Shown one piece after another: positions 7,281 through 35,189 of a DNA stretch of 64,000 nt (positions within the stretch are counted from its first letter, which is position 1; each line of letters opens with the position of its first letter). The notes under the pieces are model-generated. The model was given only the letters and a program-made list of their open reading frames with translations. It was not told the DNA's origin and searched no databases. The DNA is from Hemileia vastatrix. Its lineage: Eukaryota > Basidiomycota > Pucciniomycetes > Pucciniales > Zaghouaniaceae. A program made the translations under genes and the position numbers. The DNA lies in NCBI GenBank assembly GCA_030280995.1, contig JASXTE010000018.1:372001-436000 (forward strand). The letters run 5' to 3'.

Positions 7281-7637
7281 TCATAATTCTAAAAAAGCCA
7301 GACTCTCTCTAGAGACTGCACCACACTCCAAAACTCCTGAGTCGGCACCTACTTTACTCCTCCTACAACAATCCATGCATTGGCACATGGAAGACCAACC
7401 ACGCCTTGTTTCCCAACCATCATCTCCAGGAGATGATAACCTCATGTGAAGCCTTCTCTCATCTTTACCAGTTAACTCCAAACTAATCCCCATTTCAAAT
7501 TGATAATCAATTCTTGCCTGGAAATCCATCAAGAATGGCCCACCTAAAACAGCTTTTACATTACCTTTAGCAATGTAAAAATGAGCCTTTCTGGAGGCTC
7601 CACCAACATCCAACTTAACAAATATGGAGGTTCCCGT
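7281..7637 (-). pseudogene. pol: E1 protease, C-terminal part
   Basis: Retropepsin flap and C-terminal strand region: GTSIFVKLDVGGASRKAHFYIAKG, then VLGGPFLMDFQARIDYQFEMGISLEL. The matching N-terminal part with the DSG active site is at 19253-19523, on the other side of E2. The segment ends at the CCGT duplicated by E2 insertion (7634-7637). Confidence 0.8.
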
Positions 7638-8880
7638 TGTAGACCGCTCTAAAGTACTAAGCAGTAGACACAATGCAAGATGGGTTGGTTTTCCATTTCA
7701 ATTTCTAAAAAGAAGCGCCTGCCATTCTTATTTTTAAAGACAGCGCAATATTGTGTAACACTAATATTTGATTAGAAAGTTTAAACGATGAGAGATGAGT
7801 CTTAGAGATCAGGAAAACAAGTATTACTATCTGAATATTTCTATTCTTAATAAGCGCTAATATCCACAGCTACTCCCTCTTGAAGCGCTTTCTTGAATAT
7901 GCCTTATTATAGCAATAAAATAACTCTAATAATAGCTACTCCTACTAAATCTATATATTCTCTCTATGTTGCGCTCTTTTCACTACACTATATGAAATAC
8001 ACACACAGACGCACAAATGGTAAAAGACTCAGAAAATATCTTTTATTTGCTATTCTATTTTACTTATATATATATTTCTCTTCTCTCTATCTATATATAT
8101 ATTACTCTCCTTATCTACCAAATAGTCCTCCCTTTTTATATTTTTCCAGTACTCAAGACACAGTTTGCTAGTGGATCTTCAGCGCTGGCTCTAGCGCCAT
8201 ATTAGTAAAACAATAGCTAAGTTATTAGTAACTACATACACCGCTTGTAACAACTACGGCGCCTAAAACATACCCTATGATTACTAACGCTAGTATTAAC
8301 TTGTTTCACTCATACTCCACATATGCGTTTTTTTTGACTCTACCTTTGTTGTTGTTTTTTTTTTTCAGCGCTAATTTCAGTTTTGACCCACTCTAACGCT
8401 GATCCTAGCCGCCTTGACTCTTGGGTAGTTTTTGCAATCAAGTCCCCACTCTCCTTTCTTTAATACTAGATTCATAGTTTTGACAATTTGCTTAACTAGT
8501 TAGCCTTCCTTATTATCTGTTTCAGTAAGTTACCCGACTAGCCGCGGTACAGTATACTATGCACTTGAATTGTCCTCAAGTCATATCTCTTTTCTTTAAT
8601 GTGTAACACATAATTATTGGAAAGTCCGAATCCATATTGTTTAGCGCTTTACGGTCCTAAATTAGTAACACACAATTCCCCATTGTGCGGCACATCTCAC
8701 TACAAAATCCAAGTGCACAGACCCTTAATCCTTTTCTGTGCTTCCATTTTCTTTGTTATTTGAAACACACAAATACATATTATATTTAAGCACTTCCTAC
8801 TGCGCTAACTTCCTTTTTTCTTCCTGGACTACGCGTGCTGATTGGTCTAAAATTATGCTACCTGCGAGGCGCATACCACA
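7638..8880 (-). repeat. E2 3' LTR
   Basis: Starts TGTAGACCGCTCTAAAG and ends GCATACCACA on the plus strand, so TG...CA in element sense. Matches the LTR at 18041-19252 along its length. Rich in AGCGCT-type sites. Contains a CTATATATA-rich stretch at about 8075-8110. Confidence 0.92.
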
Positions 8881-8892
8881 TCCTCCCTCTAC
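8881..8892 (-). other. E2 polypurine tract
   Basis: Element-sense GTAGAGGGAGGA immediately before the 3' LTR, the normal place for plus-strand DNA priming. It overlaps the start of the promoter-like block for gene A. Confidence 0.75.
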
Positions 8893-8921
8893 TTGCGACT
8901 GTCCCCAGGAGCCCATAAATA
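8891..8921 (+). promoter_or_regulatory. Promoter-like block of gene A (TATA-type)
   Basis: ACTTGCGACTGTCCCCAGG followed by ATAAATA, about 77 bases before the ATG at 8998. The equivalent place in E5 (51754-51783) reads ACTTGGGACTCTCCCCAGG followed by TATAAAAA. Conservation between otherwise diverged copies, correct spacing, and a pyrimidine-rich leader support a promoter for the antisense gene. Confidence 0.6.
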
Positions 8922-8997
8922 CCTGCGTCTCGCAGAGTTTTCTTCCTCCATCTTCTGTCTTCTTCTCTTTTTATTTGTCATCTTTTTTTTTCTTATA

Positions 8998-10028
8998 ATG
9001 AATACTAGAAGTAACAATCCTACCACTGAAACTACCACCAACGTCATGGACGCAATTTGACAGTTTGTGCGCACTCAGCTCCCTGCTGCTTTACCAACAA
9101 CGCCCGTAACTACACTGATGGGTGGGACAAGATGCACCCGCTGCATTGAAAATGGCATAACTCCTTGTCATTTCTCAAAAACCTGTTGTGGCAGTAATTT
9201 CTTCACTGTAAGTCATCTTCACTTTCCTTCCTTGTTGTTACTAACCTTTCTTTTCTTTCCCTTTTTTTTTGTTTTAGTCATGCGATTACTGCAAGACTCG
9301 CAAAAAGAAGTGTAGTTACAATGGGCCACCCACCGTTGCATGCCTGGACTCTAACACCTCCACTACTAAAATGATGAGTTAAATGACCATCAAGCGCCCG
9401 GCACCTGCTCCTGTTACCCCACCTGTTAACAAACAAACCAAGGTTGGTTACTGCGAACCTACACCCAATAGCATTGCTTCTGTCCCAAGATCTCTCTTTT
9501 CGGAGGAGAGTACTGTAAGTCTTCTTTTCCTACTTCTTCCTTTATTTTATTTTTTTTTTATATCAGAATGCGCCAGGCACACCTTACGCTGAAACGCCAC
9601 CACCAACGAACGTTCCTCTATTCCTTCCAGCCTTGGAAGAAGATCCCGTCTGGGATACTGCTCCTATTCCGGAGTGTACTCCTCATACACCCACCCCTGA
9701 CTGTACAATTATGCAGCCAGTCTTCGATACAATTATCCCGGATGAATGGCCCGTAAAAACTACTCCGGTCACCGATGATGAAGAGCCCGCCGCGGCTCAA
9801 AACTGGGAATTTGCAGAGCACATTGCCTGCGTACCATATGATGCAACCATGCGTTGTATGAACAATATGATAGTCACCGTTGAAAAATTTCTCAAGGAAG
9901 TCCCGGTCTATACTCGCACCGAGTATGACGAAAGAAAACAGCTAGTCACCACCTTGCAGCAAAACATGCAAGAGGCTGTTTACAACTGGGCTTTCTGTGT
10001 TCCAATCTATGAGGACGCAGAATACTAA
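8998..10028 (+). pseudogene. Accessory gene A of E2: spliced Cys-cluster protein, one nonsense codon
   Basis: Three exons: 8998-9207, 9278-9514, 9567-10028, with GTAAGT...TTTTAG and GTAAGT...TATCAG introns of 70 and 52 bases, all joins in phase 0. Exon 1 ends CTRCIENGITPCHFSK and exon 2 starts SCDYCKTRKKKCSY: two C-x2-C-x6/7-C halves, like a Zn2Cys6 cluster with a long linker and a basic KKK stretch. The remainder is Pro/Thr/acidic, with a helical-looking C-terminus (IVTVEKFLKEVPVY) ending DAEY. No signal peptide or membrane segment. Stops: TGA at 9058-9060 if the first ATG is used (the ATG at 9118 avoids it and fits E5 better) and TAA at 9380-9382, where E5 has CAA. Likely DNA- or RNA-binding; function unknown. 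Confidence 0.72.
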
Positions 10029-10486
10029 AAAAAAAATCTTCCTTGTATATAGTACCTGTAAATTGTATTTAATCTTGTAAAAAAAAAAACTGTAATATTA
10101 TTATTTTATTTTCCCTTAATTTTCCTGTGAAAATTCTACAACTGCGAGATGAGTTGCCTTCAGAAATTATCATCCTTTTTCTAAGCAGAACCCTTCTACT
10201 AAATGCTTGAGATTGTTGCTACTTTCTATAGCAGCAAATACTTCCCCTGTGTCGCAGATGCATGCGCTCTCTTGTAATTTTCAGATCTTCGCAATATATG
10301 ACTTTCCCTTGACTGCGACAGATTTGCCTTTCCTTGGGTCCTTCATTATGACAAAAAATTTTCCCTATCTTTATAGAAACCATCTGGCGCTCAAGTCAAA
10401 CATGGCGCACTGGTGACTTCTCTACAATGCCATGTTATCTTATAAATAACCCTTCTAATAATCTAGATCTCTTTCATCCAAATATT
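10029..10486. other. Spacer between genes A and B
   Basis: No gene. The first 120 bases are A/T-rich with several poly-A runs, suitable for a gene A 3' end. TATAAATA at 10441-10448, 39 bases before the gene B ATG, is a good TATA candidate for gene B. Confidence 0.55.
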
Positions 10487-11283
10487 ATGACTCAATATTG
10501 TACCGTCCCAAAAGATCAAGCGTGCTTGTTTTGTAAATGCCGCAACTTCCATTGTACATTTTCTAAACCTCGGGGGAATGCCTCCTTTGGACCTGCCTGT
10601 GAAAATTGCTTTAGATACTGCAAAAATTTCAACATCTCTTTAAACCAGAATACTCCTCTGCCTGCTGGTTATATCCGCTTTCCACCTAGCTCTACTAGTA
10701 GCGCTCCCATAGCTACAACCACTAGTCCCACTATTTCCACTAATAATAATGTTCCTTATGAATCTCCATTGCTTCCTAGTTTTCCCAGGTGCAAAATATC
10801 TATTCAGCCTAGTGCTACACCTTCTTCCACTCCAAGCTCTAATGCTTCTATGCACTCAGGCTCCACTGCAGCTTCTCCTGACGCGGTTACCATTACTTTG
10901 CCATCAGCGCACCCACAAAACTTATTAGCAAGTAAGTATCCTTTATTATACTTATGCTTCCTTTACCCGCTGACTCTTTTTCAGGCTTCAATGAATCCAT
11001 CTCCCTGGGATGGGTTCCTATTCCTTTACCCTTTGTCAATTCCATGAAAATGTTTTCCAGACTTCGTCTTATATATGACGCTATGTCTCTATCCTACTCT
11101 AACGCACCAGCTTTTTTTGATGCTGAAATTGAAGCTTGCTATACCCATATAGAAATGATAGGTCAGCTAATGAAAGAAATCAGCTCATCAACTATTCTTG
11201 GATTCCCTGCCGATCCCCGTCGCTTTGTCATGCCTGAATACTGGAAAGGATATCCTATTAGCTTTCACTCTGATACTGAATAG
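10487..11283 (+). CDS. Accessory gene B of E2: intact spliced Cys-cluster protein
   Basis: Two exons, 10487-10931 and 10985-11283, joined across a 53-base GTAAGT...TTTCAG intron within a Ser codon; about 247 residues. The start MTQYCTVP is chosen because E5 begins at the same place and is not open upstream. N-terminal ACLFCKCRNFHCTFSK and PACENCFRYCKNF form C-x2-C-x6-C and C-x2-C halves; the last Cys, present in E5 (CDNCFRYHKTC), is Phe here, although an extra Cys lies three residues after the second. Then a Ser/Thr/Pro-rich stretch (about residues 70-145) and a conserved C-terminal domain (LGWVPIPLPFVNSM, LRLIYDAM, HIEMIGQLMKEISS, GFPADPRRFVMPEYWKGYP). Resembles short fungal C6 proteins; related to gene A in the Cys region. 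Function unknown. Confidence 0.8.
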
Positions 11284-11864
11284 CCCACTAGCGCTTTTCC
11301 TTATGAGCCTCCTCTGTCCATTCTCCCTGTACATAGTCTTTGTATATTTTTCATGCTATGCCTTCACATAATCTTTTTAGACATGGCTCTATTCTATTAC
11401 ACCTGTCTTCCATACTTTTAGAGCGCCTAACTTTGCTCCCTCTACTTTCTTTAAAAGACTGTAAACCCAAAAAAAATCATAAATAAACCTTCATATTGTA
11501 AAACTTTACCGCCTTTACTGCGATACAGCAATATACCATGTAAAATAAGAATTGAACTGTAGAGCGCCTCATCTATAAATTGCTATTCCACTCCTGGTTA
11601 ATTAACCCATTAGCTAAATCCCCAGCGTCTTTTGCGTTTACATGATACACATCTCCTTTAATCCAATTACCTATTTTGTCATGTCCCTTTGAGCAATGAA
11701 AATATCAGATTTCATTTTCCTCTGCACCCTCATCTAAGCGCTTGTGCCAGTTGCCTGTTCAGCCATAGTCCACTTAACTTCCAGTTAGCGCCCTCTATCC
11801 GTCACAACTGTGTCAAAAGCCTCCTGTGAGTCCTCTTAGAAAAACAAAACTTAACATAACTTGT
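11284..11864. other. Convergent spacer between gene B and E2 pol
   Basis: No gene. Holds the likely gene B terminator (AATCATAAATAAACC near 11476-11490) and the 3' end of the pol-side transcript. Partly collinear with E5 54238-54681, which shows both copies share one architecture. Confidence 0.55.
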
Positions 11865-11921
11865 TAGTTTAACCTCTTCCTGGAGGTATTATTCTGGTAG
11901 TTTTTTCTCATTCCAGAGGTT
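11865..11921 (-). other. Pair of small stem-loops at the E2 pol stop
   Basis: In element sense, CTCTGGAATGAG + AAAAACTA (about 11896-11921, still coding) and, right after the TAA at 11889-11891, ACCTC-CAGGAA-GAGGT + TAAACTA (11865-11888). E5 has a similar doublet at 61895-61953. Confidence 0.65.
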
Positions 11922-13137
11922 ATCTTGTATCACTGGAACACCCCTTGGGTAGAGTCTTTTGATCTGATCTGCAGCCACACGTTGCTTCCACTCAGTACCA
12001 TCCAATTCCTCCAGTAAATAAGACCCTCCAGTTATCTGCTTTCTTATCCTATATGGACCGTTCCATCTGTCAGAAAACATCTTGAACCATTGGCTTTCTA
12101 AACTTCTATTATAAACCAAAACCAAATCTCCTGAATTCAATGGCTTCCTTAAACTATGCGCTAAACGCTCATCCCAATATTTAACTGACTTGTGACGGAT
12201 CTGCATCATTCTTTCATACGCCTTCTCCACAAACTTGTCTTTCCTTTCAAGCTGCGCTACCCTCGCTAGAATTAAATCTTCAGTTGAGCACACTTTATCC
12301 CTGTCACATCCTAGAAATGATCCAGCCTCCAGATCAATAGGTCATACCTCCCTTTGACCAAACATCAGTTCATACGGTGAAAACCCTGTTTTCCTTTTAA
12401 CTGAAATCCTGTCCACAAACAAAACTAATGGCAAATAGTTCTTCCATTTTTCCCCATTATTTACACATAGTTTAACTAGCCCATCTTTTATAACTTGATT
12501 CCCTCTTTCTACCATTCCCTCTGCTTCAGGATAATATGGTGTTGCAACTCGTAACTTTGTGCCAATACCTTTTACTACCTCTTGGAATTCTCCAGAAAAT
12601 TCACCTCCTTCATCTACAGTTACCATCTTAATTACCCCATACCTGTAAATCCATTCTTTCTTCAAAAATTCAGCTACATTACTCGCCTTGAGATTTACCA
12701 ACAGCACTGCTTCAATCCATCCTGATAGATCATCCCTGGCTACTACCAAGTATTTAAATCGTCCTTATTTTATATGAACTGCATCTAAACTGACCCTACC
12801 AAAAACAGTATCTTTTCCTGTCGCTCTTACTTCCTTTCTCTTTTGGCTTTCTGTAACTCCTGCGCTGGCATTCAGGACAAGATTTAACCCAATCTCTTAA
12901 TTCATTTTTCATATTGGGCCACCAGAACCTTTCCCTAACTCTGCAATACGTCTCATCTTGACCTCTATGTCCTAAATTCTCATGTAACTCCCTGAGTATC
13001 ATCTCCTTCCCTTACCTAGTTTGAACAACTAACTGAGGGGACAAAGCTCGATTCTTCCATAACTTCCCATTTTTAATAAAATAACCTTTAGCGCGCTTCT
13101 TAATTTTGCGCCAACCCTTTTTATTGCAAAAATCTGG
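11889..13137 (-). pseudogene. pol: E2 pol: integrase
   Basis: Zinc-binding part LHENLGHRG...CPECQRR (about 12990-12860), catalytic D,D,E core with VVARDDLSGWIEA, VTVDEGGEF and YYPEAEGMVERGN, then YLPLVLFVDRISVK, SPYELMFGQ and a C-terminal domain KPLNSGDLVLVYNRSLESQW...WNGPYRIRKQITGGSYLLEELDGTEWKQRVAADQ. No chromodomain is visible. Breaks: a stop/frame change at about 12750-12795 between the zinc part and the core, and another at about 12300-12340. Otherwise better preserved than E1 and E3 and useful as their reference. Confidence 0.88.
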
Positions 13138-14087
13138 TCAACTACTACCTTCCAAATATAACCTTAACAACTCTACTCCCTCATCAGTAGATGCGTCGTC
13201 TTCAGAATACTCCCCTTCTTTGAGATGAGTACTACTGTCTTGACTTCCCCTTGAATCATCTTCATCATCTGACTCTTCCACTACTTTGCCTTGTGCACTT
13301 CTTGTCGCTACATTAGCTTCAGCGTCCCCTAAATCCAGTTGCAGACTACCCTTGCTACAAAAATCATCATCAATATCCATTTTTATGTCATTAAGGATCA
13401 TCCGCATTACTAGTTTATTGTCATAACGGACAATACTGCCTGCTAGTTTATTGTCATCGCGGACGTTACTGTTAAATCTTTCATAACAATAATCTACCCC
13501 ATTTACCCATTTCTTATCTTCTTCCAATTCTTCCTCTTCCGAGTCTTCTTCACACAGCAGTCTTCTTGACAATGAATCCGGCATAGTGAACAATTTTCCC
13601 TGTTTATGGACTAAATAAAAAGAAAACAAATTAATCTGCGCTACCCACCTCGTCATGGGCGCATCTGGTAGACTCACTACTAATCATTTATACCAATGAT
13701 AGCGCATCAACCTGCAGCTCAAAATGCTGCCCCCAAAGCATCCATTGTAGCTTCTTAAGAATCTTCGCTACTCCACATAACTCCAACTTGGACTGAGAGT
13801 ACCTGGACTCCACTTTGGTAAAGGTATTAGACTCATAAAGGACAGGTCTATCATTACCTTCCTCATCATCCTGCATCAAAACTGCGCCCACCGCGGACAC
13901 ACTAGAATCTACCGCTAAAGTAATTTTCCCAGCGCCTGGTCCATACTCCAATTTCTTCAAAAGAATGTCTTTCCCTACAATCCTTTTCAATAACTTGAAT
14001 GACTCCTTGCATTCCTCCGTCCAATCCCATACAACATCTTTTCTTGTTAAGCGCCGTAAAGGTGAAGACAACAAGGCAAAATCTCAA
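13138..14087 (-). pseudogene. pol: E2 pol: RNase H and acidic spacer
   Basis: RNase H: ITLAVDSSVSAVGAVLMQDD, RPVLYES, SKLELCGVAKIL, HFELQVDALSLV. A stop follows LSLV at about 13686. The linker reads FYLVHKQGKLFTMPDSLSRRL, followed by a strongly acidic spacer (EEDSEEEELEEDKKW). Within it, two adjacent stem-loops (13411-13434 and 13444-13467) encode the repeated peptide R-D/Y-D-N-K-L, yet they match the same nucleotide motif found in non-coding positions elsewhere. Confidence 0.82.
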
Positions 14088-15172
14088 ATAAACATTCTTA
14101 CATAGGTACAGATGCCTAAAAACTCTATAACTTCCTTAGTATTTCTTGGTCTTGGCCACGTAAGTACCTTATTCATCTGTTTCTCAGCAACGATTCTCCC
14201 TTCCTTGCATACCACATGTCCCACTCTATCTAGCGCTGGAACACAACAAGCAAATTTGGACCCAGAAATCGTTAATCCTGCCTCCTCTATCCTAAATAGC
14301 ACTCTTTCCAGAGTAACCGCATATTCACAAAAAAACTTTATAATACGCGTATTCTCTTCTATCACTTCCCCATCGTAATCACTGGCTGGTCCTTTTATAC
14401 CGCCATCATTGATGAAAATTCCCACATGTTCTGGAATTTAATCCTGAAATATCCACATCATCGGTGCTTGATATACCGCCACAGAATTTGTTGCGCCTTG
14501 CGGTAACCTTGTCAACCTGAAGTTTCCCAGTGGTGTTTCAAACATTGTCATGGGTCTGGATGATTCATCCAATTTGCGCTCATTGTATCCTCCCATAATA
14601 TCACCTAATCCATAACATGCACGTCCCGCAAAAGAATCCACAAACTCCTCTGGCCTTGGTGGCATCCCTGCGTCCTTTACTGTAACCTTGTTTATTTCCC
14701 TAAGATCATGAACAACCCTTAATTTACCATTATGTTTAACAACAAAAAACACTGGACTTGAATAACTAGACATAGACTGTTCATAAAAGCCAGACTTTAA
14801 CCTTCCCCTAATTAATTAGGTATACTCTTCTCCTATGGCCGCTGGTATTGGAAAAGCCTTCTTCTGCCACAGCGCATGAGGTATAACTGGAACAATATAA
14901 GGTTTACCATAAGAGTGTTTTAACAAACCTCTTTCATCTTCTGAAAGCGCAATAGAATTTTCCCTAAGAAACATAACGTGTAACAACAACTTCTTTTCTT
15001 CCTGCGATAACCAATCCTCTGGTCCAAAATTAACCATCTGAAGCCTTTCCATTGTAATGTTACCAGTAGGCGCAAAATCAGGCAGAAACTTTGTTAAAGG
15101 GGTATCATAAGGATTCCTGGACAGCGCTGGCCTCTGCAAAGGAGGATTCAAATCAGGCATTGCTACATTCAC
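14088..15172 (-). pseudogene. pol: E2 pol: reverse transcriptase, catalytic Asp lost
   Basis: Proline-rich lead-in (LNPPLQRPALSRNPYDTPL), SSPVFFVVKHNGKLRVVHDL, REINKVTVKDAGMPPR, GLGDIMGGYNERKL (first Asp kept), FRLTRLPQGATNSVAVYQ, then GIFINDGGIKGP. The last reads FIND where E1 and E4 have FIDD: the first Asp of the metal-binding pair is Asn, explained by one G-to-A change, so polymerase activity should be lost. Stops at FQD-stop-IPE (about 14437) and in RMFI-stop-DFA (about 14084). A further frame break at about 14774-14816 separates the lead-in from the fingers. Confidence 0.87.
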
Positions 15173-15488
15173 AGGTTTAACCTTAACAGCAACTGTTTTA
15201 TACTTTGATGCAAAACAACTCTTTCTGATTTCTTCATTAAATAAAATAAAACCCTTTTAATATAACTACGGGTTGCACCTAAATCCTGTTTTTGTCTTTT
15301 CTTTTTAATGTAACTATAACAATATCCGTAATCAAAGAAATTAAAAACCTTAGGTATAATACATTCTACAGTAGTATTCCCAAGACACCTATGAAGTACC
15401 ACTTTACGTATCCCTGCTTGTTGGACTGACTGGTCACTATCCGGGTCCCTCTCATCCTGGGAGATAGTAACACCTAAAATGCCAGTCC
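15173..15488 (-). other. E2 protease-RT linker
   Basis: Short weakly coding linker (SYIKRVLFYLMKKSERVVLHQSIK and similar), continuing the polyprotein between protease and RT. No recognisable domain. Much shorter than the duplicated linker of E1 and E4, which marks E2 as another subfamily. Confidence 0.5.
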
Positions 15489-16370
15489 CTAATGAAAATG
15501 TTGGCGCCTTCCTGGCGGTCGCCCTATCTTGTCATCTGAGACTTCCTCATGAAATTCTCTTTCTTTCTCTAACCACGCAGCTCCAGAGTACTTAGTTTCC
15601 CAGCCACCATACTTGGGCGCTACTAAGACTGCTGTTACTGGAACACCATCATCACCCAAAATCCTTATTCCAATAGTCTTATTCAAACAATAATCTATAG
15701 TTGCAGATTATTCCATTAAAAATGGCGTGCCTAAAACTGATTTTACTACACCCATTGAAAAATAAAAATGTATATCCCTCGTCGCTCCTGCAACTCTAGT
15801 GCATACATATTCTGCTACACCTATAACAGGTAACCTGCCTCCACCAATTCTTGCGACAGTTCCTTCACCGTCTTTAACAGGAAGACCTAACTCAACTGCA
15901 TCATCCACTGACACCACGTTGATTTTTGAACCTGTATCTACTAACGCTTTAATTTGCTTACCATTTACAGAAATTGTTAAATACCCTAAGAGTCCTGCAT
16001 AATGTCGCGCCCTAGGTATTCCAACAATTGGCTGAAATTTCTGCTGTTTAACATCAAACTCAGCGCAATTAGCAATACTTTGCTTCCTACACTTATCCAC
16101 AATTCCATTCACTACATCCAGGGCTACTGCTGTCAGCATCCCCAATGGAACAGAGACTGTAGTCTTCGAGCATTGCGCAACTAAATCCTTGGCTGCTTTA
16201 GGAAAATCAGAGTGAACCAAACACTGCATTATCCATTTAGGTTGAGTCTCCTTTGCACCAGCTTTTGCTCTTCCAGGTGGGTTCTTTGGTGTATTGTGCC
16301 TTTCTCCTGGCATTCCTTCAGCAGGTAACGCTCTTTGCTGTACTACCTCTGATTCCTCCAACATTGCCAT
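15489..16370 (-). pseudogene. pol: E2 protease (retropepsin)
   Basis: Aspartic protease that cuts the polyprotein. Active-site loop ALVDTGSKINVVS (Asp-Thr-Gly), flap region GGGRLPVIGVAEYV, and the conserved VLGTPFLME near the end. A stop after FLME (about 15707) precedes the tail TIDYCLNKTIGIRILGDDG...GAAWLEKEREF. Upstream the frame continues as an acidic/basic linker to gag. The active site is complete, unlike E3. Confidence 0.85.
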
Positions 16371-16382
16371 TTGATCTTCTAC

Positions 16383-17798
16383 CTAGTGATCCACGCCATA
16401 ACCACCTGGTTCCATACCCTTCATTTCAACATCCTTCATATGTGAAGGTGTATTCTCTCTAGTAGTATACCCTACTTCCTCCATATCCTCTGGATTCGCA
16501 TACCTAGCACCAGCCCTTCTTGGCCTAGAAACTGTAGGTGGGGCCATTTTCTTGTGATTTGCTGCGAACATCTCCAAACGCGCTGCTGTGAGTGGCGCCG
16601 CAACTGCTCCCTCTTTTACTTTTAAATTCAGCACTGCGCAAGTAACTGCAAAATTGACTGACTTCGTATCCTTGCCTTTTTCTTTAATTTCGGGCTCTTT
16701 ACCCTTGTTTGACCTGCCTTCCATAGACTTTTTATTAATATGATCAATGACCATGGCTTGCATCCCTCGATTCTTGTCTTTAACAAGCTTAGTGCTGTCT
16801 TCCAACATAAGTGTAGTCCTGTCCTCATAAACTACCTTTTCCTCTTTATCCCTTTGAAGCACATTACACCTCATCCTAATATGCCCCTCTTTATTACAAT
16901 AATATCACACAATAGCAGAAAAACGTGAAGGTTGAGGAGAACTCTTGGGCCTAAACAATTCTTTCCCCTTTGCCGCTTCAATTATCATTTTCTCCAACTC
17001 ATCAATCCTTGCCATAACTGAATCTGGCTCCTTAGTGAAAACTTTATCTTTAGGTGACAACATCTAAGGAGGCAATCGTGCACCAGACTCATCTTCATTC
17101 ATCTCCTCATTATCCAAAGCAACCCTAGCTGCGCGACGCTCAACTCGACGCAACTTCATTTCAGCTTCCACCTCCATTTCTACTTCTTCTAATCCAGGGT
17201 ACTTATAATTTCCATCCCTTTTTTTAACCAGTTTTCCTTTGTTATCCAAGCGCCTTTTTGCCCAGTCTTCAACTTCTGGCGCTAACGCTTCACAAAACCA
17301 AGGTAAAGATGCATTAGCATCACTAAAGTCTTCATTACTAACTAAATATTCCACTATTCGGTCGAATTCTTCCCTAAATCTTTTAAATTCCTTAGGGTCT
17401 CAAGCACCCCCTTTAGCTTTAACTCTTTTTACCAAGATATCCAGGTCCTTCATTGTGTACCTAGTTTCCTGGGTAACCTTTGGCCATCTCTTGAGCATCT
17501 GTTCTTTTAGGGCTGGCCAGTCTCGCTCTTCATGCCCTTTTAGATCCTCTAACTTGTCTTTGCACTCATTAGTTACAAAAAATAGTACTTGACATACCAT
17601 ATTGTATTCAGTCGCTCCATGAACTTCAGCTGCGTCTTCAAACCTGCTTAAATACTTCTTGGTATTAATGCCCACAAAACACATGCTTTCCTCTTTACAC
17701 CTAATGATCTTAGTTACCGTCTTTGACAACGATGTCGAAGAATTGGGCAATTTAACCCTCTCCTGACATCCCCTAGATGTAGTCGCAGTAGGATCCAT
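16383..17798 (-). pseudogene. gag: E2 gag (capsid and zinc knuckle)
   Basis: Start MDPTATTSRG at 17798. Capsid-like region CFVGINTKKYLSRFEDAAEVHGATEYNMV, then HEERDWPALKEQMLKRW, typical of fungal gypsy Gag. The zinc knuckle reads stop-YYCNKEGHIRMRC: its first Cys codon is TGA (16905-16907), while E3 keeps C-x2-C-x4-H-x4-C. Further stops at 17400-17402 (after KAKGGA) and 17064-17066. A charged C-terminal tail links to the protease. Confidence 0.82.
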
Positions 17799-18020
17799 TC
17801 CTGAAATATAAAATCAAAACAGAGATCACAAAAGCACACACTTGGTAATTAAACCTGACTATATTCACCATGCAGCCCTATGCTATCCTCTGATAACGGC
17901 TATTGATCCACTTGTTGTAGACCCTACAACTCTTCTGCTGAAGCGCTGGCTTGATTACCTCCTCTTGACAAAACCCTGAAAAACCAAACAATCTAATCAA
18001 AAAATACTAGTTAAAATTAT
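17799..18020 (-). other. E2 5' leader
   Basis: Untranslated stretch between the primer site and the gag start. No feature besides short A/T-rich runs. Confidence 0.5.
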
Positions 18021-18038
18021 TCCACTGTTGTGACACCA
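18021..18038 (-). other. E2 primer binding site
   Basis: Element-sense TGGTGTCACAACAGTGGA, two bases inside the 5' LTR. It starts with TGG, as expected for pairing with a tRNA CCA end, but differs from the tRNA-Lys-type site of E4, N1 and N2. The tRNA is not assigned; the acceptor complement would begin GTCACAA, which is Ser-like. Confidence 0.65.
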
Positions 18039-18040
18039 AC

Positions 18041-19252
18041 TGTAGAGAGCTCTAAAGTACTAAGCAGTAGAAAAAATGCGAGATGGGTTGGTTCTCCTCT
18101 TCAATTTCTAAAAAGAAGTTCCTGCCACTCTTATTTTTAAAGACAGCACAATAATGTGTAACACTAATATTTTATTAGAAAATTTATAAGTTGAGAGATG
18201 AGTTTTAGAGATCAGGAAAAACAAGTATTACTATCTGGATATTTCTATTCTTAAAAAGCGCTAATATACACAGCTACTCCCTCTTGAAGCGCTCTCTTTG
18301 AATATTCCTTATTATAGCAATAAAATAACTCTAATAATAGTCAATCCTACTAAATCTATATATTCTTTCTATGTTGCACTCTTTTCACTATACTATATGA
18401 AATACACACACAGATGCACAAATGATAAAAGACTCAGAAAATATCTCTAATTCATTTATTTTATTCTTCTTATATTCTACTTACAAAAAGACTCCCTATC
18501 TCTATCAAATAGTCCTCCTTTTATATTTTTCCAGTACTCAAGACACAGTTCCCTAGTGGATCTTCATCGCTGGCTCTAGTGCCACATTAGTAAAACCATA
18601 ACTAATCTATTAGTAAACTTTGTACACTGATTGTAGCAACTACAGCTCCTAAAAAATACCCTATGATTACTAACACTATTATTAACTTGTTTCACTTATG
18701 CTCCACATATGCGCTTTTGACTATACCTTTGTTATGTTTCAGTGCTACTTTCAGGTTTGACCCATTCTAAAGCTGATCCTAGTTGCCTTGACTCTTGGGT
18801 AGTTTTGTGATTGATTCCCCACTCTCCTTTCTTTAATACTAAGCTCATAGCTCTGACGATTCACTTAACTAGTTAGCCTCTTTATTACCTGTTTCAGTAA
18901 GTTTACCCAACTAGCCGCGGTGCAGTATACTATGCACTTGAGTCATCCTTAAGCCATAACTCCTTCCTTAATGTGTAACACATAATTATTGGAAAGTCCA
19001 AATCCATATTGTTTAGCGCTTTATGGTCCTAAATCAATATCACACAATTCCCCATTGTGCAACACATCTCACTACAAAATCCGAGCGCACAGACCCTTAA
19101 TCCTTTTTTGCGCTTCCATTTCCTTTGTTCTTTGAAAAATGCAAATACATATTATATTTTAGCACTTTCTACTGCGCTAACTTCCTTTTTTCTTCCTGGA
19201 CTAGGCGCGGTGATTGGTCTAAAATTATGCTACCTGTGAGGCACGTACCACA
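18041..19252 (-). repeat. E2 5' LTR
   Basis: TGTAGAGAGCTCTAAAG...GCACGTACCACA on the plus strand. Direct repeat of 7638-8880, about 30 bp shorter, with many base differences. Followed by the second CCGT of the target duplication. Confidence 0.92.
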
Positions 19253-20400
19253 CCGTCAACTCCATTACATGACCACCTAAACATATTAAATTCCCACCAA
19301 TTCCAGTCTTTATGGGGAGACCCAAGTGAGTGGCCTCAAACAAAGAAATCAGGTTAATTTGTGAACCTGAATCTACAAATGCCCTAGCCTCCTTTCCATT
19401 CAGGGTGACGTTGACATACCCTAGAGGTGCAGAAATGTGCGTGTCCAACCCCTCTCCAAACATCTCCGCAGAATCACATATGTATTCCACTTCTCCAGAA
19501 GATACCCATCTCCTGGTAATCAACTAGTTCTGTCTATCAGCCAACCCAGGACTGATAGCATAGAACTCCCCATAAGTCAGAGAAACATGACCCTGATTCA
19601 TCCTATCTAGAACAGAGTCCATAACATTAGATTGGCCAGAGACTACTGGCCTCTCAAAGTAAGCCCTTGGCTTCACTACATTGGTCCTAGAAGTTTCCTT
19701 AGCACCAGAACCACCAACAGATTTCCCATCTTCAGGAATCAAACCAGATCCCTCACCAAAACCTCTGACCCCATCAGGCCATGGCAGTAAAGCCAACAGA
19801 ACCTCCTCCTCAGAGTCAGAGTCTACATCCATAGGCATTGGCTCACCATTAAGGTCCAATGCTTCAAAGCTAGGAGGGCCCATATTAGCAATCTCCTTCT
19901 GCATTTTATACAGCTCATCTTTGCTGTACTTCTTCCTAGCTGCACCCAGCTTAGGATCCACCTTAGAGGAATTAGGCTTGGGTTGGGCCTGAGAGCTGCT
20001 CTTTGGCCTACCTACCTTACATGCCTCTACATCATAAACACCAGCCAAGCACTCACCACTTGACTGTCCTCTGAAAGATTATAATTCTAGTCCACCAAAG
20101 GATGTAGAAAGAGGGACTTTTTTCACCTCCTTCCCTTTCCCCTTGCCGACTTCATCATGCTTAGTAGAGGAATTCCCCTGATAAGGAATCTCCTCAAATC
20201 TTAGCCTCCACTGATTGAGACCAGCCCTTCCCCTGACCATATCCACAGGAGCCTGCCCCTCACTGGGCTTGACAAAGTGACCATCAGGGAACTTGAATAC
20301 CCTGCCATCAAATTCTACTTTGCCCTCTGAAACATCTCTGTTCAGGGCCCAACAGTCATTGGACTTATGTCCTCTCCTTCTGCAATAAGAGAAAATTCAA
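19253..20400 (-). pseudogene. gag: E1 gag C-terminus and protease N-terminus
   Basis: From 20400 down: a zinc knuckle that has lost a Cys (SYCRRRGHKSNDC), GRVFKFPDGHFVKP, SVYDVEA-like linker, YSKDELYKMQKEIANMGPPSF and a conserved SLTYGEFYAISP; then the protease: VSSGEVEYICDSAEMFGEGL, GYVNVTLNGKEARAFVDSGSQINLIS. The active site is Asp-Ser-Gly, as in E4. A stop (ADRQN-stop) lies between the Gag-like and protease parts at about 19522. The N-terminal half of Gag is deleted: the knuckle joins almost directly to the LTR. Confidence 0.82.
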
Positions 20401-20424: not shown

Positions 20425-21479
20425 AAGCGAGTTGGAGTAAAACCAGAAGAAAAACCCCTGTCCCTTTAGAAAAATGGAGTGAGATTTACCTGTTACAGTA
20501 AATTGTTTCCTGTTACCACAAATCCCTTTTCTAAACACACTTGACTGCTTAATCAGTCAAGAAAGTAGTCTCCAGAAAGACTAAAAAACCAAAGAGCTGA
20601 AATGCAGACTAATGTTCACACCAGAGAAAGAAATGATACTTGATGTAGGTTTCAAATCCACACCAGAGACAGCAATGACACTTGCTATAGCTTGCAAGAC
20701 TATAACAGAGAAAACAATTGCTAAGCTAAGTTAAATGAAGAACTTACTTGCAAAAAAACACAGCTAAATTGTGGCCAACAAACAGTGAAAACTGAGTGAG
20801 GAACCAGGATATCACTGCCAGATGGTTGAATGATAATTAAGGTTGCCCCCAAACTGTCTTATTCACTATATACACACAGACTAGTAATCAAGAGTCCATG
20901 CACACCTGCAAATCCGGTGTTCCTGACCACCAAATTGCATAAAACCACCCTAGAAGCGCTTCCAGCCCTCTATCACTGAAGCAGGCAGTCCGCCCAGCAC
21001 TGGGAAGCCTGCCTGAGGCAGCCTGACCACCCTGAAGCCAGAAAACCACCAAAAACACCCAAACTACTTAGAAAATTCACCTACAACTACTAAAACCCTT
21101 AAAACACATAATTACACTACAACAACATTGTGACATGAAATGTAGAGGAAATTCCGCTCTTTCCAATGGTACTAAGCACTTAACTCTAAGACTTAAGGTT
21201 AGCCCCTTAAACACAAAAAACAAAATTTAACAGCAATCTTTTAAAAATGAAAAGTGAGATATTATCCCCCAAATACTTATGCTATGAAAAATGTCCACAA
21301 GACATAAAATATAGAGAAAAACCAAGCTATCCAATGGTAGCCTCCAGATCCCTGTAGTCCCAATATTTTCTGCAGAATTCCAGAAAAATACCTAATTATT
21401 CAACAATTCCATTTAAGGCATACCAAAACAACACCAAAAAAACCAACAAAGGGCTTAACCAATGTTGGAAGACCACAGT
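20425..21479 (-). repeat. E1 5' LTR, U5 end deleted
   Basis: Homologous to the E4 LTR and to the solo LTR at 38083-39185 (CGAGTTGGAGTAAAACCAGA ... GGAAGACCACA). The first 40 or so bases, the primer site and the gag N-terminus are missing in one deletion. Contains the GC-rich island at about 20990-21045. Its outer end touches satellite DNA. Confidence 0.82.
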
Positions 21480-21669
21480 GTAACATCACCTGGTATGCAT
21501 TTGGCACACAATTTTTTTCTATACTTATATAATTAATAATATAATGGTGACCAAAAATTAATCAAATGATATTTATGAGTTAGGCACAAAGATAAAATAC
21601 CAGTAGACATGTTTGTAAGAAATACCAGATGAACTGAAGAAAAATTCTACCCTAGCTACTCTCCATCAT

Positions 21670-21715
21670 AAAAGTGTCCAGCACAAGTTTGGCCAAACTT
21701 GTGCTGGACACTTTT
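21670..21715. repeat. Perfect 46-bp palindrome of the satellite
   Basis: Left arm AAAA + GTGTCCAGCACAAGTTTGG, followed by its exact complement. Could form a 23-bp cruciform stem with no loop. Perfect here and at 24104-24149; others carry one to several mismatches. Confidence 0.95.
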
Positions 21716-24103
21716 GGTCAGGTGCAGTCAGATAAAAGCAATTCTCTCTATGGAAATGAAGATACATTTTTGATAAATAATTACACTAGAAGTAGTTTGA
21801 TATGTGAAAATTGCCATCCTGAAGTTTTGGTAAAGCTCAAGTGGATTTTTTCTTATTTTTACAAAAAAGAAAATTTAGTGCAAGTTTAGCCCTGATTGTT
21901 CTTATTTGATCCATCATCTCTTTTTTATGTTTATGGCAGGAATTTTACTTCAGATTTTTATTTTCATCTTTGATTTCTTTTATTTCAATTTATTCCCCTC
22001 ATATTGTTTTTGGATAGAAATTTATTTTTTGTAAAATAAATCATTTTCATATATTTTTACCTTTATCTAATAATATTATAAAAGGTGTAATATCACCCAG
22101 TATTCATTTGGCACACAAGTTTTTGCTATACTGATAATATTACTAATATAATGGTGACAAAAAATTAATCAATTGATAAATATGAGTGAGGCACAAAGAT
22201 TGAATAGCAGTGGACATGTTTATAAGATATTCCAGATGATTTAAAATGACTTGCACCCTGGCTACTCTCCTCGATAAAAGTTTCCAGCACAAGTTTGGCC
22301 AAACTTGTGCTGGACACTTTTGGTTGCATGCCATCAGATGCAATCAATTCTCTTTATGCAAATGAGACTGAATGATCACTCCATCATTGCACTAAAAGTA
22401 GTTTTATATGGACAAATTGTCCCCCTGAAGTTTTTCCAAACCTAAGGTAGACAATTTTTTACTTTTGTAAAAATTAAATTCAATCCTTGTCAATCTATGA
22501 TGGTGCCCATTTTTTCTGAAGATTTTACTGGCTCATGATAGCAGAAATTATACTTAATATCTTTATTTCATGTTTGATCTCTTTAATTTTAGTTTTACCC
22601 TTTTATTTATCCTTTAGCTTTTAAATATCAATTTTATTTTTTTAAAACTGATAATTTTCACATTTTTTACATTTATCATATAATATTATGAAGGTTGTAA
22701 AATCATCCAGTGTACATTCAGTACACATTTTTTTGCTATACTAAAAACATTAATAATATAATGGTGACTAAAAATTAATCAAATGATAATTATGAATGAC
22801 ACAGAAATATTAAATACCCATAGACATTTTTAAAAGGAATACAAGATTAACTGAAGACAACTTGCACCCTAGCTACTCTCCATCATAATAATGTCCAGCA
22901 CATGTTTGGCCAAGCTTGTGCTTGAAACCTTTGGTTGCATGCAGTCTGATGGGATAAATCTACTCAATGGAAGTTTAAATGAATTTTTTCTCAATCATTG
23001 CACAAGAAGTAGTTTTATACTGCTATACTATCCTCCTGATTTTATGGAAAACCTCAGGTGGACACATATATTAATTTAAAAAAAATGAAAATATATTCCA
23101 AATCTAGAACTGGTGGTGCAAATTTGGTCTGGAAACTCAAATTATCTTTGATGGCAGAAATTTTATTTGAATGTTTAATTTTATATTTAATCACTTTTAT
23201 TTTACTTTTTTATTCCTCTTTTTGCTTTCAAATATCAATTTATTTATTGTAAAACTAATACTTTTCATATTTTTTTTACTTTTATTTAATAAGATTATTA
23301 AAGATGTAGCATCTCCAAGTATGCATTTGGCTTACAAGTTTTTTCAACACTAATAACATTAATAGTATAATGGTGAAAAACAATCAATCAAATGATAAAT
23401 ATGAATGACACAGAAAGATCATATACAAGTGGATTTGTTTATAAGGAATACCTGATGAACTGAAGAAGACCTGCACCCTAGATACTCACCATCAAAAAAG
23501 TGTCCAGCATAAGTTGGGCCAAACTTGTGCTGGACACTTTTGGTTGCATGCAATCAGATGGGATAAATTTACTCTATTGAAATGAAAATGAGTTTTTGCT
23601 CAATCATTGCACAATAAGTAGTTTGATATTGCCAAAATTTCCTCCTGATGATTTTTAAAACCTCATCAGGACACTTTCTTTGGTTTAACAAAAAAGAAAA
23701 TATAGTCTAAGTTTAGCCCTGGTGGTGCACATTTGATCTAACACAACTACTTGTTATTGATAATGGGAATTTTCCTTAGATTTTTTTTTCTTATTTGATC
23801 CCTTTTATTTTACTTTTTTATTGCTCATATTGCAATGGATATCAATTTTTAATTTGTAAAATAAATAATTTTCATACTCTTATACCTTTATTTAATAATA
23901 TATGATTAAAGGTGGAACACCGCCTGGTATGCATTTTTCACACAAGTTATTACTATATTAATTATGTTAATAATATAATGATGACAAAAAATTAATCAAA
24001 TGTTAAATTTAAATGACACAGAAAGATCAAATAACAGTGGAAATGTTTATAAGAAATACCTTTTGAGTTTGAGAAGATTTTATGTATGCCTACTCTCAAT
24101 TAT

Positions 24104-24149
24104 AAAAGTGTCCAGCACAAGTTTGGCCAAACTTGTGCTGGACACTTTT
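24104..24149. repeat. Second perfect copy of the 46-bp palindrome
   Basis: Identical in both arms to the copy at 21670 although the surrounding units differ. Confidence 0.93.
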
Positions 24150-27100
24150 GGATGCATGAAGTCATATGAGATAAATTCTCTCTATGGCAATGAAAATGAT
24201 ATTTCACTCAATTATTGAAGTAAAGAATGTTTACTATTGTAAAATTGTCCCCTGGAAGTCTGTCCAAACCTCAGATCAAAAATTTGTTAGCTATACATAA
24301 AAGTAAATTTAGCCCAAGTCTTGACCTAGGGGTCCCCAACTATCCCAACATTACTTCTTGCTCTTCATTGTAAAAATTTTACTTGTATTTTTTATTGCGT
24401 ATTTAATCCCATTTATTTTAATTTTACTTTTCTATTACTCTTTTTAATTTTAAATATCAATTTATTTTTTTAAAAACTAAACATATTCATATTTTTTTAA
24501 CTTTATATAATATCATTATTAAAGGTGTAACATCACCAATTTTGCATTTGGCATGCAGGTTTTTGCTATACTAGAAACATTAATAATATATATGGTGACA
24601 AAAAATTAATTATAAGATAAATATGAATGACAAAAAAAAGATAAAAAACCAATAGAAATGTGAAAAAATAAAAACTGATGTAATGAGGGGCACTTCCACC
24701 CTAGCTACCCTTCATCATAAAAGTGTCCAGCACAAGTTTGGCAAAACTTGTGCTCAACACTTTTGGTCAGGTGCAGTCAGATGGGATCAATTCTCTCTGT
24801 GGAAATGAAATTAAAGAAATGCTAAATAATTACATTAGAAGTAGTTTGGAATGGATGAATTATTCACCTTAAGTTTTTCCAAACCTCAGGTAAAAAATTT
24901 TTTATCTTTTAAAAAAATTAAATTTTGTCAAATTTAGCCCTGATGGCACCCATTTGTTTCAACACCTCTACTGGCTCTTGATGGCAGGAATTTTCCTTGA
25001 ATTTATATTTTTCATATTTGATTTCTTTTACTTTACTTTTTTATCACTTATGTTACATTTGGATATTAATTTATAATTTTGGAAAAAAAATCATTTTCAT
25101 ATTTTTTGAACATTTTTTAATAATATTATAAAAGGTGTAATATAACATGGCATGCATTTGGCACACAATTTTTATATATACTAATAAAATTAATAATATT
25201 CTAGTGACAAAAAATTAATCAGATAATAAAATATGAATAACACACAAAGATCAAATACCAGTGGACATATTTTAAAAAAATACCAGTTGCACTGAAGAAT
25301 AACTGTACCCTAGATACTCACCATGAAAAAAGTGTCTGGCACAAATTTGGCCAAACTTGTGCTGGACACTTTTGGTCAGGTGCAGTCAGATGGGATCAAT
25401 TCTCTCTATGGCAATGAAAAAAATTATTTGATAAAAAACTTCAATAGATGCAGTTTGATATAGATGAATTGTCCACCTAGAGTTCATCCAAACCACAGGT
25501 ACACAATTTTTTATCTTTAAAAAACAGTCAATTAAGTACAATTTATCCCTGATGGCTCTCAATTGCTTCAACATCTCTTCTGCTCTTTGATATTAGGAAT
25601 AATAATTGGATTTCTTTTTTCATATTTGATCCCTTTAATTTAATTTTTTATTCCTCATATTGCTTTGGGATATCAATTAATAATTTTTAAAATAAATAAT
25701 TTTAATATTTTTATACATTTATTTAATAATATTATAAAAGGTGTAACATCACTCAGTATGCATTTGGCACACAATTTTTTGCTATACTTATAAAATTAAT
25801 AATATAATTGTGACAAAAAATTAATCAAACAATATATATGAGTGAGGCACAAAGATAAAATACCAGTAGACATTTTTGTAAGAAATACCAGATGAACTGA
25901 AGAAAAATTCTACCCTAGCTACTCTCCATCATAAAAGTGTCCAGAACAAGTTCAGCCAAACTTGTGCTGGACACTTTTGGTCATGTGCAGTCAGATGGGA
26001 TCAATTCTCTGTATGGCAACAAAAAAATTTTTTTATCAAATTTCACTAGAAGTGGTTTAGTTTAGCTGAATCATCCACCTGCTGTTCTGCCCAATCTCAG
26101 GTGTATGATTTTTTATCTTTAAAAAAAAGGTCACTTATTACAATTCAGCCCTGATGGCTCCCATTTGCTTTAACAGCTCTACTGGCTCTTGATAGCAGGA
26201 ATTTTCCTAGTATTCTTTTCATATTTAAACTCCTTGATTTTAATTTTACTCTTTTAATCCTCTTTTTGCTTTTAAAATTCTATTTAATTTTTATAAAACT
26301 AATCATTTCCATATTTATTTACCTCTATTTTAAAATATTTTTGAATGTATAACTTCACCCGGTATGCATTTGGCACACAAGTTTTTGCTATACAAATAAC
26401 ATTAATAATATAATGGTGATAAAATATTCATCAGATGATAAATATGAGTGATAAAGTTTGATCAAATGCCAGTAGAAATGTTTATGAGAAATACAAGATG
26501 AAGGAACTGAAGAAAAATTCCACCCAAGCTACTCTCCATCATAAAAGTGTCCAGCACAAGTTTGGCCGAACTTGTGCTGGACACTTTTGGTCATATTCAG
26601 TCAGATGGGAGCAATTCTCTCTATGGCAAAAAAAAAAATTTTTTTATCAAACTTCACTACAAGTAGTTTTGTTTAGCTGAATAATCCACCTGTCATTCTT
26701 CCCAACCTCAGGTGTATAATTTTTTATCTTTAAAAAAAAGGTCACCTATTACAATTTAGCCCTGATGGCTCCCATTTGTTTCAACACTTCTACTGGCTCT
26801 TAAGAGCAAGAATTTTACCAGTATTTTGTTTTTCACAATTGATCTCTTTTATATTAATTTTACTTTTTTATTTCTGTTTCTTTAAAAAAGATCTATTTAA
26901 ATTATTGTAAAGCTAATTATTTTCATATTTTTTTACCTTTATTTCATAATATTATAAAAGTTGTAACATCACCTGGTATGCATTTGGCACATGAGTTTTT
27001 TCTATACTTATAATATTAATAATATAATGGTGACAATAAACTAATCAAATGATATATATGAGTGAGGCACAAAGATCAAATACCAATGGACATGTTTATA

Positions 27101-27698
27101 AGAAATACCAGATTAACTGAAGAAAAATTCCACTCTAGCTTCTCTCCATCATAAATGTGTCCAGCAAAGGTTTGGCCAAACTTGTGCTGAACACTTTTGG
27201 TCACATACAGTCTGATGTGATCAATTCTCTCTATTGCAATGAAAATGAATTTTTCTTCAATAATTGCACTAGAAGTTGTTTGATATGGCAAAATGGTTCT
27301 TCTGAAGTTTTGTTAAACCTCGTTTTGGCACCTTTTTTGTTTTTCAAAAAAGAAATTACAGTTCAAGTTTAGCGCCACTGGTGGGCATTCACCCCAATAT
27401 GTCTACTTGCTCTTGATGGCAAGAATTTTACTTTAATTTTTTATTTCATATTTGATCCCTTTAATTTTACCTTTTTATCCCTTATACTTCTTTTGCATAT
27501 CAATTTATTTTTTGTAAAACAAATTATTTTCATATTTTTTTAGCTTTATTTAATAATATTCTAAAAGGTGTAACATCACCAAGTATGCATTTGGCACACA
27601 AGTCTTTGCTATACTTATAATATTAATAACATAATGGTGACGAAAAATCAATCAAATGATAAGTATGAATGAGGCACAAAGGTCAAATACCAATGAAT

Positions 27699-27914
27699 CA
27701 ATAGTTTATTTTAATATTATAAATTTTTTGATTAAATAAAATAGTAATAATGAATTATATTTTTCATTTACAATTCCATTCTAATGATTCCCACTGCACA
27801 AAAAGGGTGCACTCAGTCCTTTCTTTACTGCTTGTGCATATATTTTATTGCCCACAGTACTACAATTTTTTGTAGTGATTATCCCACATCTGATTCAGGA
27901 ATATTTTTAAACAA
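27699..27914. other. AT-rich spacer
   Basis: Nothing recognised; satellite similarity stops at about 27698. Confidence 0.5.
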
Positions 27915-29435: not shown

Positions 29436-30283
29436 TAGTTTATCCTCATCCCAGAGGTAATTCTTATGTTACTGATATCCCACTTGAGTAGAATCTTTTG
29501 ATTTGATCAGCCGCTACACATAACTTGCATTCAGTGCTGTCCAAATCCTCCAGTTATCTGCTTCTTGACCCTATAAGGTCCATTCCATCTGTCCGCAAAC
29601 ATTTTTCCCCATTGAATTTCAAGACTTCTGTTGTATACTAATACCAAGTCCCCTTGTTTCAATTGTTCCCTCAATCTGTGTGCTAAACTCTCATCCCAAT
29701 ATTTCACTTACTTTTCCCTAATCTGCATCATTCTTTCATATGACCTCTCCACAAACTTGTCCTTTCTTTCAAGATGTTCCAATCTTTCTAGAATTAAGTC
29801 CTCAGTTGAGTGCACTTAGTCTCAATTATTTCCTAGGAAAGATCCAGATTAAAGATCTATAGGTAATACTGCCCTCTGACCAAACATAAGTTCATAAGGT
29901 GAAAAACTTGTTGTCCTTTCAACTGAAATCCTATCTACAAATAAAACTAAAGTTAAATAACTTTTACATTTTTCCCCATTAGTTCGACATAGTTTAACTA
30001 GTGCATCCTTAATTACTTGATTCCCTCTCTCAATCATACCTTCTGCTTCTGGATGATATTTTGTTGCAGCTCAAATATTTGTGCCAATCCTTTTAACAAC
30101 TTCTTTAAAATCTCCAGGGAATTCAGCCTCTCCATCCACAGTAAAAATTTTCATTACTCTGCATCTATATACGCATTCATTCTTTAAAAACTAAGCTACA
30201 TTACTTGCCTTAAGATTTATCAAAGGTGCTGCTTTAACCCATCCTGACAGATCATCCCTGGCTAAAACCAATTATTTTAAATT
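29436..30283 (-). pseudogene. pol: E3 pol: integrase, core and C-terminus
   Basis: Readable pieces: EGMIERGNQVIKDALVKLC, LVLFVDRISVERTTSFSPYELMFGQRAVLPIDL, ARLSLEIQW-like C-terminal part, SDRWNGPYR. Multiple stops and frameshifts. The last catalytic region and GNQ motif remain recognisable. A stem-loop, CTCTGGGATGAG + GATAAACTA (29436-29459), lies at its end. Interrupted at 30283 by N1; continues at 36100. Confidence 0.78.
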
Positions 30284-31152: not shown

Positions 31153-31162
31153 TCCTCCCTCC
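31153..31162 (-). other. N1 polypurine tract
   Basis: Element-sense GGAGGGAGGA immediately before the 3' LTR; identical in N2 (56745-56754) and close to that of E2. Confidence 0.75.
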
Positions 31163-33566: not shown

Positions 33567-33567
33567 A

Positions 33568-35185: not shown

Positions 35186-35189
35186 GAAA

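Follow-up and report, generated by a model that had tools for sequence, protein, structure and literature searches.

Antisense extra open reading frames (ORFs), located between pol and the 3′ long terminal repeat (LTR), have been described for the plant Ty3/gypsy elements Grande (gene23), RIRE2, and Retand (TRP28) (PMC7264820; PMC11963269). A promoter of its own and a nuclear protein have been reported for the Grande gene, and DNA binding has been predicted for TRP28 (PMC7264820; PMC11963269). Among fungi, Boty/BcGypsy1 of Botrytis cinerea carries an antisense extra gene, brtn (PMC7264820; PMC8365987). The function of such antisense genes of LTR elements was called unknown in a plant review (PMC7264820). 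Here we describe a 64-kb stretch of DNA (positions 372,001 to 436,000 of contig JASXTE010000018.1; hereafter, the window) from Hemileia vastatrix, which has a genome of 748 Mb with dense, nested LTR elements. The fungus-specific transcription-factor domain Fungal_trans gave 24 matches from 46 candidates in this genome, several of which lie on small, possibly foreign contigs, and matched in 0 of 14 control genomes. The LTR elements of the window are designated E1 to E5, and copies fetched from elsewhere in the genome bear numbers of the L038 type. One of these elements, the Ty3/gypsy element E2, carries two spliced antisense genes, A and B, encoding proteins that we call, from their cysteine modules, zinc-cluster-like.

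The place and opposite orientation of A and B are like those of the extra ORFs of Grande, RIRE2, and Retand, and the original prediction for this locus, made from the sequence alone, was right in stating that plant gypsy elements such as Grande and RIRE2 carry antisense extra ORFs there (PMC7264820). Compared by description, and as far as the portions of these accounts consulted describe them, the plant proteins differ, E2 having two intron-bearing zinc-cluster-like genes; the word “intron” is absent from the main text of the Retand paper. The accompanying statement, that its author knew of no described fungal element with a pair of C6-like proteins, needs an amendment: Boty has an antisense extra gene at the same place. 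A zinc-cluster pair was not met in the portions of the literature consulted. The Boty accounts, in the sections consulted, name one gene, where E2 has two, and make no mention of a zinc-cluster module. A spliced zinc-cluster-like pair with a dispersed motif was not found in the literature on antisense and accessory genes of LTR elements, a body of text that mostly excluded subscription papers. As far as that literature goes, the spliced antisense zinc-cluster-like gene pair and the dispersed motif are new, antisense extra ORFs being already known.

A further comparison is provided by the VANDAL elements of Arabidopsis. VANC21 is located in the noncoding regions of VANDAL21; there, it binds to a short sequence motif, and methylation is lost as a result (PMC5735166). 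Related VANDAL families have different motifs (PMC5735166; PMC10398659). VANDAL elements resemble E2 and E5 in that each encodes a protein and has, in its own noncoding DNA, built up many copies of a short motif; VANC sites are tandem repeats, whereas the AGCGC sites reported below are dispersed.

An antisense gene pair inside a Ty3/gypsy element

E2 occupies positions 7638 to 19252 of the window on the minus strand and, as predicted, is bounded by LTRs (3′ LTR, 7638-8880; 5′ LTR, 18041-19252; both minus strand) and by a 4-bp target-site duplication, CCGT (7634-7637 and 19253-19256), with A and B inside. The two LTRs are identical at 1079 of 1207 aligned bases, in an alignment that overshoots the inner edge by five bases; the edge was fixed from the sequence. 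The uninterrupted inverted homologue of E1 (∼48.2-48.6 kb) shows the empty site and reads CCAT at that position, indicating that E2 is nested in an older E1. The pol domains follow one another in the Ty3/gypsy order on the minus strand: protease (15711-16370), reverse transcriptase (RT; 14441-14773), RNase H (13691-14074), and integrase (12345-12749), the last matched with an E value of 5e-6 although its score, 27.1 bits, is below the curated cut-off (32.6). The gag-pol region as a whole (11889-17798, minus strand) is broken, and gag was assigned by place only. Two LTRs, a short target duplication, and a polypurine tract, all expected of Ty3/gypsy elements, are present.

Genes A and B are on the plus strand between integrase and the 3′ LTR, opposite to gag-pol, where they had been predicted to be. 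A purine run, the polypurine tract of the minus strand (8881-8890), adjoins the 3′ LTR and is followed by the leader of gene A (purine run and leader, 8881-8997, plus strand). Position 8881, the start in the original prediction, is the inner edge of the LTR, and the ATG of gene A is at 8998. Gene A (8998-10028; 302 codons) has exons at 8998-9207, 9278-9514, and 9567-10028, separated by introns at 9208-9277 and 9515-9566, while gene B (10427-11283; 267 codons) has exons at 10427-10931 and 10985-11283 with an intron at 10932-10984; all three introns are GT-AG on the plus strand. An AGCGC-rich spacer of 605 bases (11284-11888) extends from B to the end of integrase. A TATA-like sequence, CATAAATA, is present in the leader ∼34 nt from the LTR edge, and a 41-base stretch at this edge is 83% identical between E2 and E5, which have a block of purine run, leader, and TATA-like box in common here. 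The promoter of gene A seems, from these features, to be located at the LTR edge.

Copies across the genome were surveyed with two queries. From the search with A plus B DNA, the best 40 of 1389 candidates were scored, all of which matched, and the best 30, including the window copy, were fetched. In all 30 aligned copies, the inner edge of the LTR and the purine run came directly before A, and the LTR outer edge was at the expected place in 24; flanking bases differed among all 30, two being nearly alike. As this query favors copies carrying A and B, a search with pol alone was also run (best 40 of 4131 candidates scored, window copy included). For 21 of these 40, the first search had already listed the adjoining A/B match, 597-609 bases away in 20 cases and 1531 in one, and 2-kb stretches were fetched at the expected place of A and B for the other 19. 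At least 469 bases of B were present at this place in 16 copies, a stub of A of 93-94 nt in two (one of which also had 70 nt of the end of B), and one copy had no A or B in the 2 kb fetched. B adjoined pol, therefore, in 37 of the 40 best pol copies, many of these B genes being broken. When B was used as a protein query, the best 144 of 7824 candidates yielded 182 matches, and many of the ∼155 listed were without a stop. The survey bore out the anticipated LTR-pol-B-A-LTR order, and the refuting possibility that most copies of the family lack A and B fell with the pol search. There was no sign, among the best 40 of 1389 and the best 144 of 7824 candidates, of A and B occurring mainly as host genes outside LTR pairs. 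A and B belong to the element.

The window copy of A has two in-frame stops; that of B is open for its 267 codons and has lost the sixth cysteine, which most other copies kept. A spliced frame without stops or indels was present in 5 of the 30 copies for A and in 14 of the 30 for B (one of the latter without an ATG), some of these copies having a changed splice site. No precise intron loss was detected among 90 cases (three introns in 30 copies), in copies that had been found with an intron-bearing query. GT was present at the three introns in 27, 23, and 30 of the 30 copies, and AG in 30, 29, and 28. Introns in sense would be spliced out of the genomic RNA, while antisense introns are not seen there and are retained; it follows, by reasoning from the retroelement cycle, that the antisense placement shields these introns through the RNA cycle and lets a retroelement keep them.

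The pair in related families

The original prediction treated one element, and A and B are inside E2 as it stated, but several related families have the pair in common. E5 belongs to a second family and has the same strand and order as E2: a 3′ LTR (50710-51744, minus strand) followed by degraded A2 (51893-52900, plus strand; end approximate), in which the first intron is placed as in A, and degraded B2 (53468-54238, plus strand). An inverted LTR copy (54681-55738) and an inserted element, E4 (∼55797-61643), separate B2 from the pol assigned to E5 (integrase and RNase H; 61643-64000, minus strand). The proteins of E2 and E5 are ∼43-44% identical in the best stretches, and among the best 40 of 1446 candidates for an E5 query, 21 additional matches were 1.9 kb or longer, at 80-87%. 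An arrangement of A2 and B2 within a terminal inverted repeat element, with 50710-51744 and 54681-55738 as its 1-kb inverted arms, was set aside, the arms being LTR copies; the flanks of the second arm, GCGC and GCGG, would be compatible with an inserted solo LTR that has since decayed.

In a third family (L050), B3 and integrase are ∼615 bases apart, and a nested LTR occupies the expected place of A; B is more decayed in L051 than in L050. In the E1 family, four copies were fetched downstream of integrase. B′ was present in three, and A′ as well in one of them, with cysteines spaced in the same or a similar way; no A′ or B′ was seen in the fourth within 4.6 kb, part of which is a microsatellite like that at 287-1706 of the window. 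The latter is a long C/T-rich tract that is probably inside the B′-integrase spacer of E1, judging by comparison with L058-L061. Upstream stretches of two of the B′ copies were also obtained: one showed the LTR, with A′ ∼90 nt beyond, and the other was LTR to its end, overlapping the start of the earlier stretch in which A′ stands. The order LTR-A′-B′-integrase was, hence, found in two E1-family copies, and its presence in E2, E5, and these copies indicates that it predates the split of these families.

The cysteine module of A is C-x2-C-x7-C-x14-C-x2-C-x6-C, and that of B and of the E1-family B′ is C-x2-C-x6-C-x14-C-x2-C-x6-C; A′ has x6 and x12. Six cysteines in two CxxC...C halves and basic residues are shared with the fungal Zn2Cys6 factors, from which A and B differ in the 14-residue loop and in having no match to Fungal_trans in Pfam. 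In Pfam, A, B, A′, and B′ all matched Zn_clus (PF00172) best. Against its cut-off of 21 bits, a 105-residue A fragment taken from a different copy reached 21.1, A′ 18.3, and B′ 14.2 and 13.0. Probes A and B each matched both A′ and B′ weakly (E values of 2e-3 and 0.21 and of 8e-3 and 3e-5; L060), on which basis A and B may be old duplicates of each other. Spliced B and A had no match at an E value of ≤1 among 5.8 billion proteins (665 and 771 candidates, respectively), a collection whose fungal share is not known. A PDB sequence search with the modules of A and of the E1-family B′ gave nothing significant, the best match for B′ being AlcR (E value of 0.21).

Between families, nonsynonymous divergence (dN) was well below synonymous divergence (dS). 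B from four E2-family copies compared with B2 and B3 gave dN of 0.41-0.47 and dS of 1.4-2.5, and A from E2-family copies compared with A2 gave dN of 0.42-0.49 and dS from 1.8 to saturated; the resulting dN/dS of 0.17-0.31 comes from protein-guided alignments, which favor a low dN, near saturation and with one side decayed. Nucleotide-only alignments agreed: mismatch at codon positions 1/2/3 was.24/.19/.45,.22/.16/.45, and.28/.09/.43 for B and.36/.15/.45 for A, with third positions the most changed and second positions the least in each sum. This substitution pattern indicates that A and B evolve as proteins between families.

A dispersed motif and possible functions of the proteins

The two E2 LTRs contain AGCGC or GCGCT (the palindrome AGCGCT counting twice) 15 and 10 times, where 1.6 and 0.7 would be expected, and the 605-base spacer contains them 7 times, where 0.5 would be. 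AGCGCT itself, in which the E2 3′ LTR is also rich, occurred 25 times in the window against 2.1 expected, with 14 occurrences in E2 and 8 in E5, and the AGCGC sites were dispersed through the noncoding DNA of both elements. Expressed as the share of CpG dinucleotides lying in GCGC, the E2 LTRs plus spacers gave 28/63 and the LTR, spacer, and inverted LTR of E5 gave 14/33, while B gave 2/16 and A with its leader 3/39. Eight stretches next to other E5-family A genes gave 47/117; the E5 LTR aligns over its whole length with six of these (40/90), in part with one, and not at all with one. The controls were 13/203 in the window outside E2 and E5 and 11/98 in six 4-kb stretches at round coordinates elsewhere in the genome, one of them from the E1 family. 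Over 30 E2-family copies, the share was 0.38 in the LTR and 0.38 and 0.44 in the spacers, compared with 0.12 in A, 0.21 in B, and 0.18 in integrase; per kilobase, GCGC numbered 7.3 in the LTR, 5.4 and 7.4 in the spacers, and 2.9 in integrase, with none in the leader of A. The GCGC excess is strongest in noncoding DNA and is not confined to it.

Survival of a slowly decaying CpG context was disfavored as a source of this excess, since A, which is equally old, has 3/39. CpG was kept in 0.59 of the 30 copies at 22 noncoding or integrase GCGC sites and in 0.49 at 36 others outside A and B, a difference by which faster decay of other CpGs explains the excess poorly. CGG/CCG was also considered as the enriched site of E2 and was not enriched. 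Observed/expected CpG was 0.02-0.17 in most of the DNA examined (the window and the six stretches), with higher values in E2 (0.50-0.71), E5 (0.27-0.39), and one other stretch (0.43); depletion has the pattern found under cytosine methylation. In the LTRs of E3 and E4, 18/28 CpGs were in GCGG/CCGC, in clusters, compared with 4/26 inside these elements, 19/98 in the random stretches, and 6/30 in E1-family LTRs. These clusters are taken as a lead, and no more, to a putative different cognate motif.

The reading that we favor, tentatively and by analogy, is that the two proteins bind DNA and regulate the element family that encodes them, either by activating the LTR or by protecting it from silencing marks, in a manner that would be VANC-like in working. 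As constitutive accessory genes of a Ty3/gypsy clade, A and B would be transcribed from their own promoters opposite gag-pol, then spliced, and the antisense mRNAs would be translated into zinc-cluster-type nucleic-acid-binding proteins. Most likely, these would go to the nucleus and work in trans on the family that encodes them, with zinc bound and with the short, dispersed AGCGC motifs of LTRs and spacers as their binding sites; once bound, they might activate the LTR, or remove or keep off silencing marks, as VANC does for VANDAL elements, which are DNA transposons. The likeness to VANC is one of working and not of descent, and VANC binding has been demonstrated, whereas that of A and B is what we infer. 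A short motif enriched in an element's own noncoding DNA, as in the VANC systems, was found in E2 and E5 and not in the E1 family. A bolder version, that a fungal LTR clade evolved a two-protein, family-specific anti-silencing or activation system as an independent counterpart of plant VANC, is possible but doubtful; the motif recognized would be AGCGC in E2 and E5 and perhaps the GCGG clusters in the LTRs of E3 and E4. If the motif link is true, part of the growth of large fungal genomes driven by transposable elements may be due to evasion of control that the elements themselves encode.

Several observations weigh against regulation of this kind. The AGCGC motif was picked by inspection and tested afterwards, albeit recurring in a second family. 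GCGC was also raised in E2 gag-pol (31/122 CpGs), and over the 30 copies the genes themselves contained it, at 4.0 (A) and 4.4 (B) per kb, compared with 7.3 in the LTR. E1-family DNA of the window, which has A′ and B′, showed no excess (1/28 and 0/33 CpGs), nor did L058-L061 of the same family (3/30, 0/13, 0/16, and 2/15), and no convincing motif was found in E1-family LTRs; the third family has few CpGs (GCGC, 2/10 and 3/5). Full-length A and B scored 14.2 and 12.9 bits against the Zn_clus cut-off of 21, and the A2 and B2 fragments gave no match. Within E2, the ratio of replacement to silent changes in A was 111:70 for shared and 273:78 for private changes (1.59 compared with 3.50; P = 1e-4), but one of five wrong-frame controls gave a nearly equal drop (2.55 to 1.61); for B the ratios were 60:25 and 231:67 (2.40 compared with 3.45; not significant, P = 0.20), and wrong frames dropped as far. 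With these drops matched by wrong frames, the case for selection rests on the between-family comparison. L038 and L049, two E2-family copies with A and B deleted, share a deletion breakpoint in A (∼9090), which suggests a deletion derivative that spread or a recurrent deletion.

The same anatomy and motif data would be expected if A and B repressed or metered the element, for copy-number control or exclusion of relatives, through damping of the LTR or interference with particle assembly, and sequence cannot separate an activator from a repressor. The families carrying A and B seem abundant, judging by candidates at first look and not by counted copies (1389 for the E2 query, 1446 for E5, and 6645 for E1), which is weakly at odds with a net repressor, and repression is considered rather unlikely. 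It is also unlikely, and slightly more so, that A and B act on RNA or complementary DNA instead of chromatin, as nucleic-acid chaperones or pre-integration-complex factors to which the GCGC sites are unrelated. A cysteine-rich module that includes basic residues could act on RNA no less than on DNA, Pfam supports a DNA-binding zinc cluster weakly, and the E1 family has the genes without the motif; A and B are, however, separate, intron-bearing, antisense genes and not a product of gag-pol, and a role of this kind leaves the motif excess of E2 and E5 unexplained.

Zn2Cys6 genes are common in fungi, and A and B might be passengers, host transcription-factor genes caught by one lineage and useless to the element. 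The presence of B by pol in 37 of 40 copies, the occurrence of the pair under constraint in several families, and the lack of a homologue at an E value of ≤1 in the protein collection of uncertain fungal content make this improbable. Least probable of all is that the antisense transcript itself matters, through double-stranded RNA or interference, with the reading frames incidental. This was raised as a possibility for the plant antisense ORFs (PMC7264820), but the open spliced frames of some copies, the codon-position bias, and the between-family dN well below dS argue for proteins. Favoring, as stated, own-family regulation, we note that the question of function becomes directly testable in this genome, given its several diverged families, the thousands of places found as candidates at first look, proteins under constraint, and a motif that may be the cognate one.

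Other repeats of the window

E3 (30283-35944) and E4 (55797-61643) are related LTR elements that have internal sequence in common with the E1 family; no pol was found among their ORFs, and they are apparently non-autonomous. A tandem array of ∼606-bp units (21446-27722), at least nine of which have a 46-bp near-perfect palindrome, adjoins the 5′ LTR of E1.
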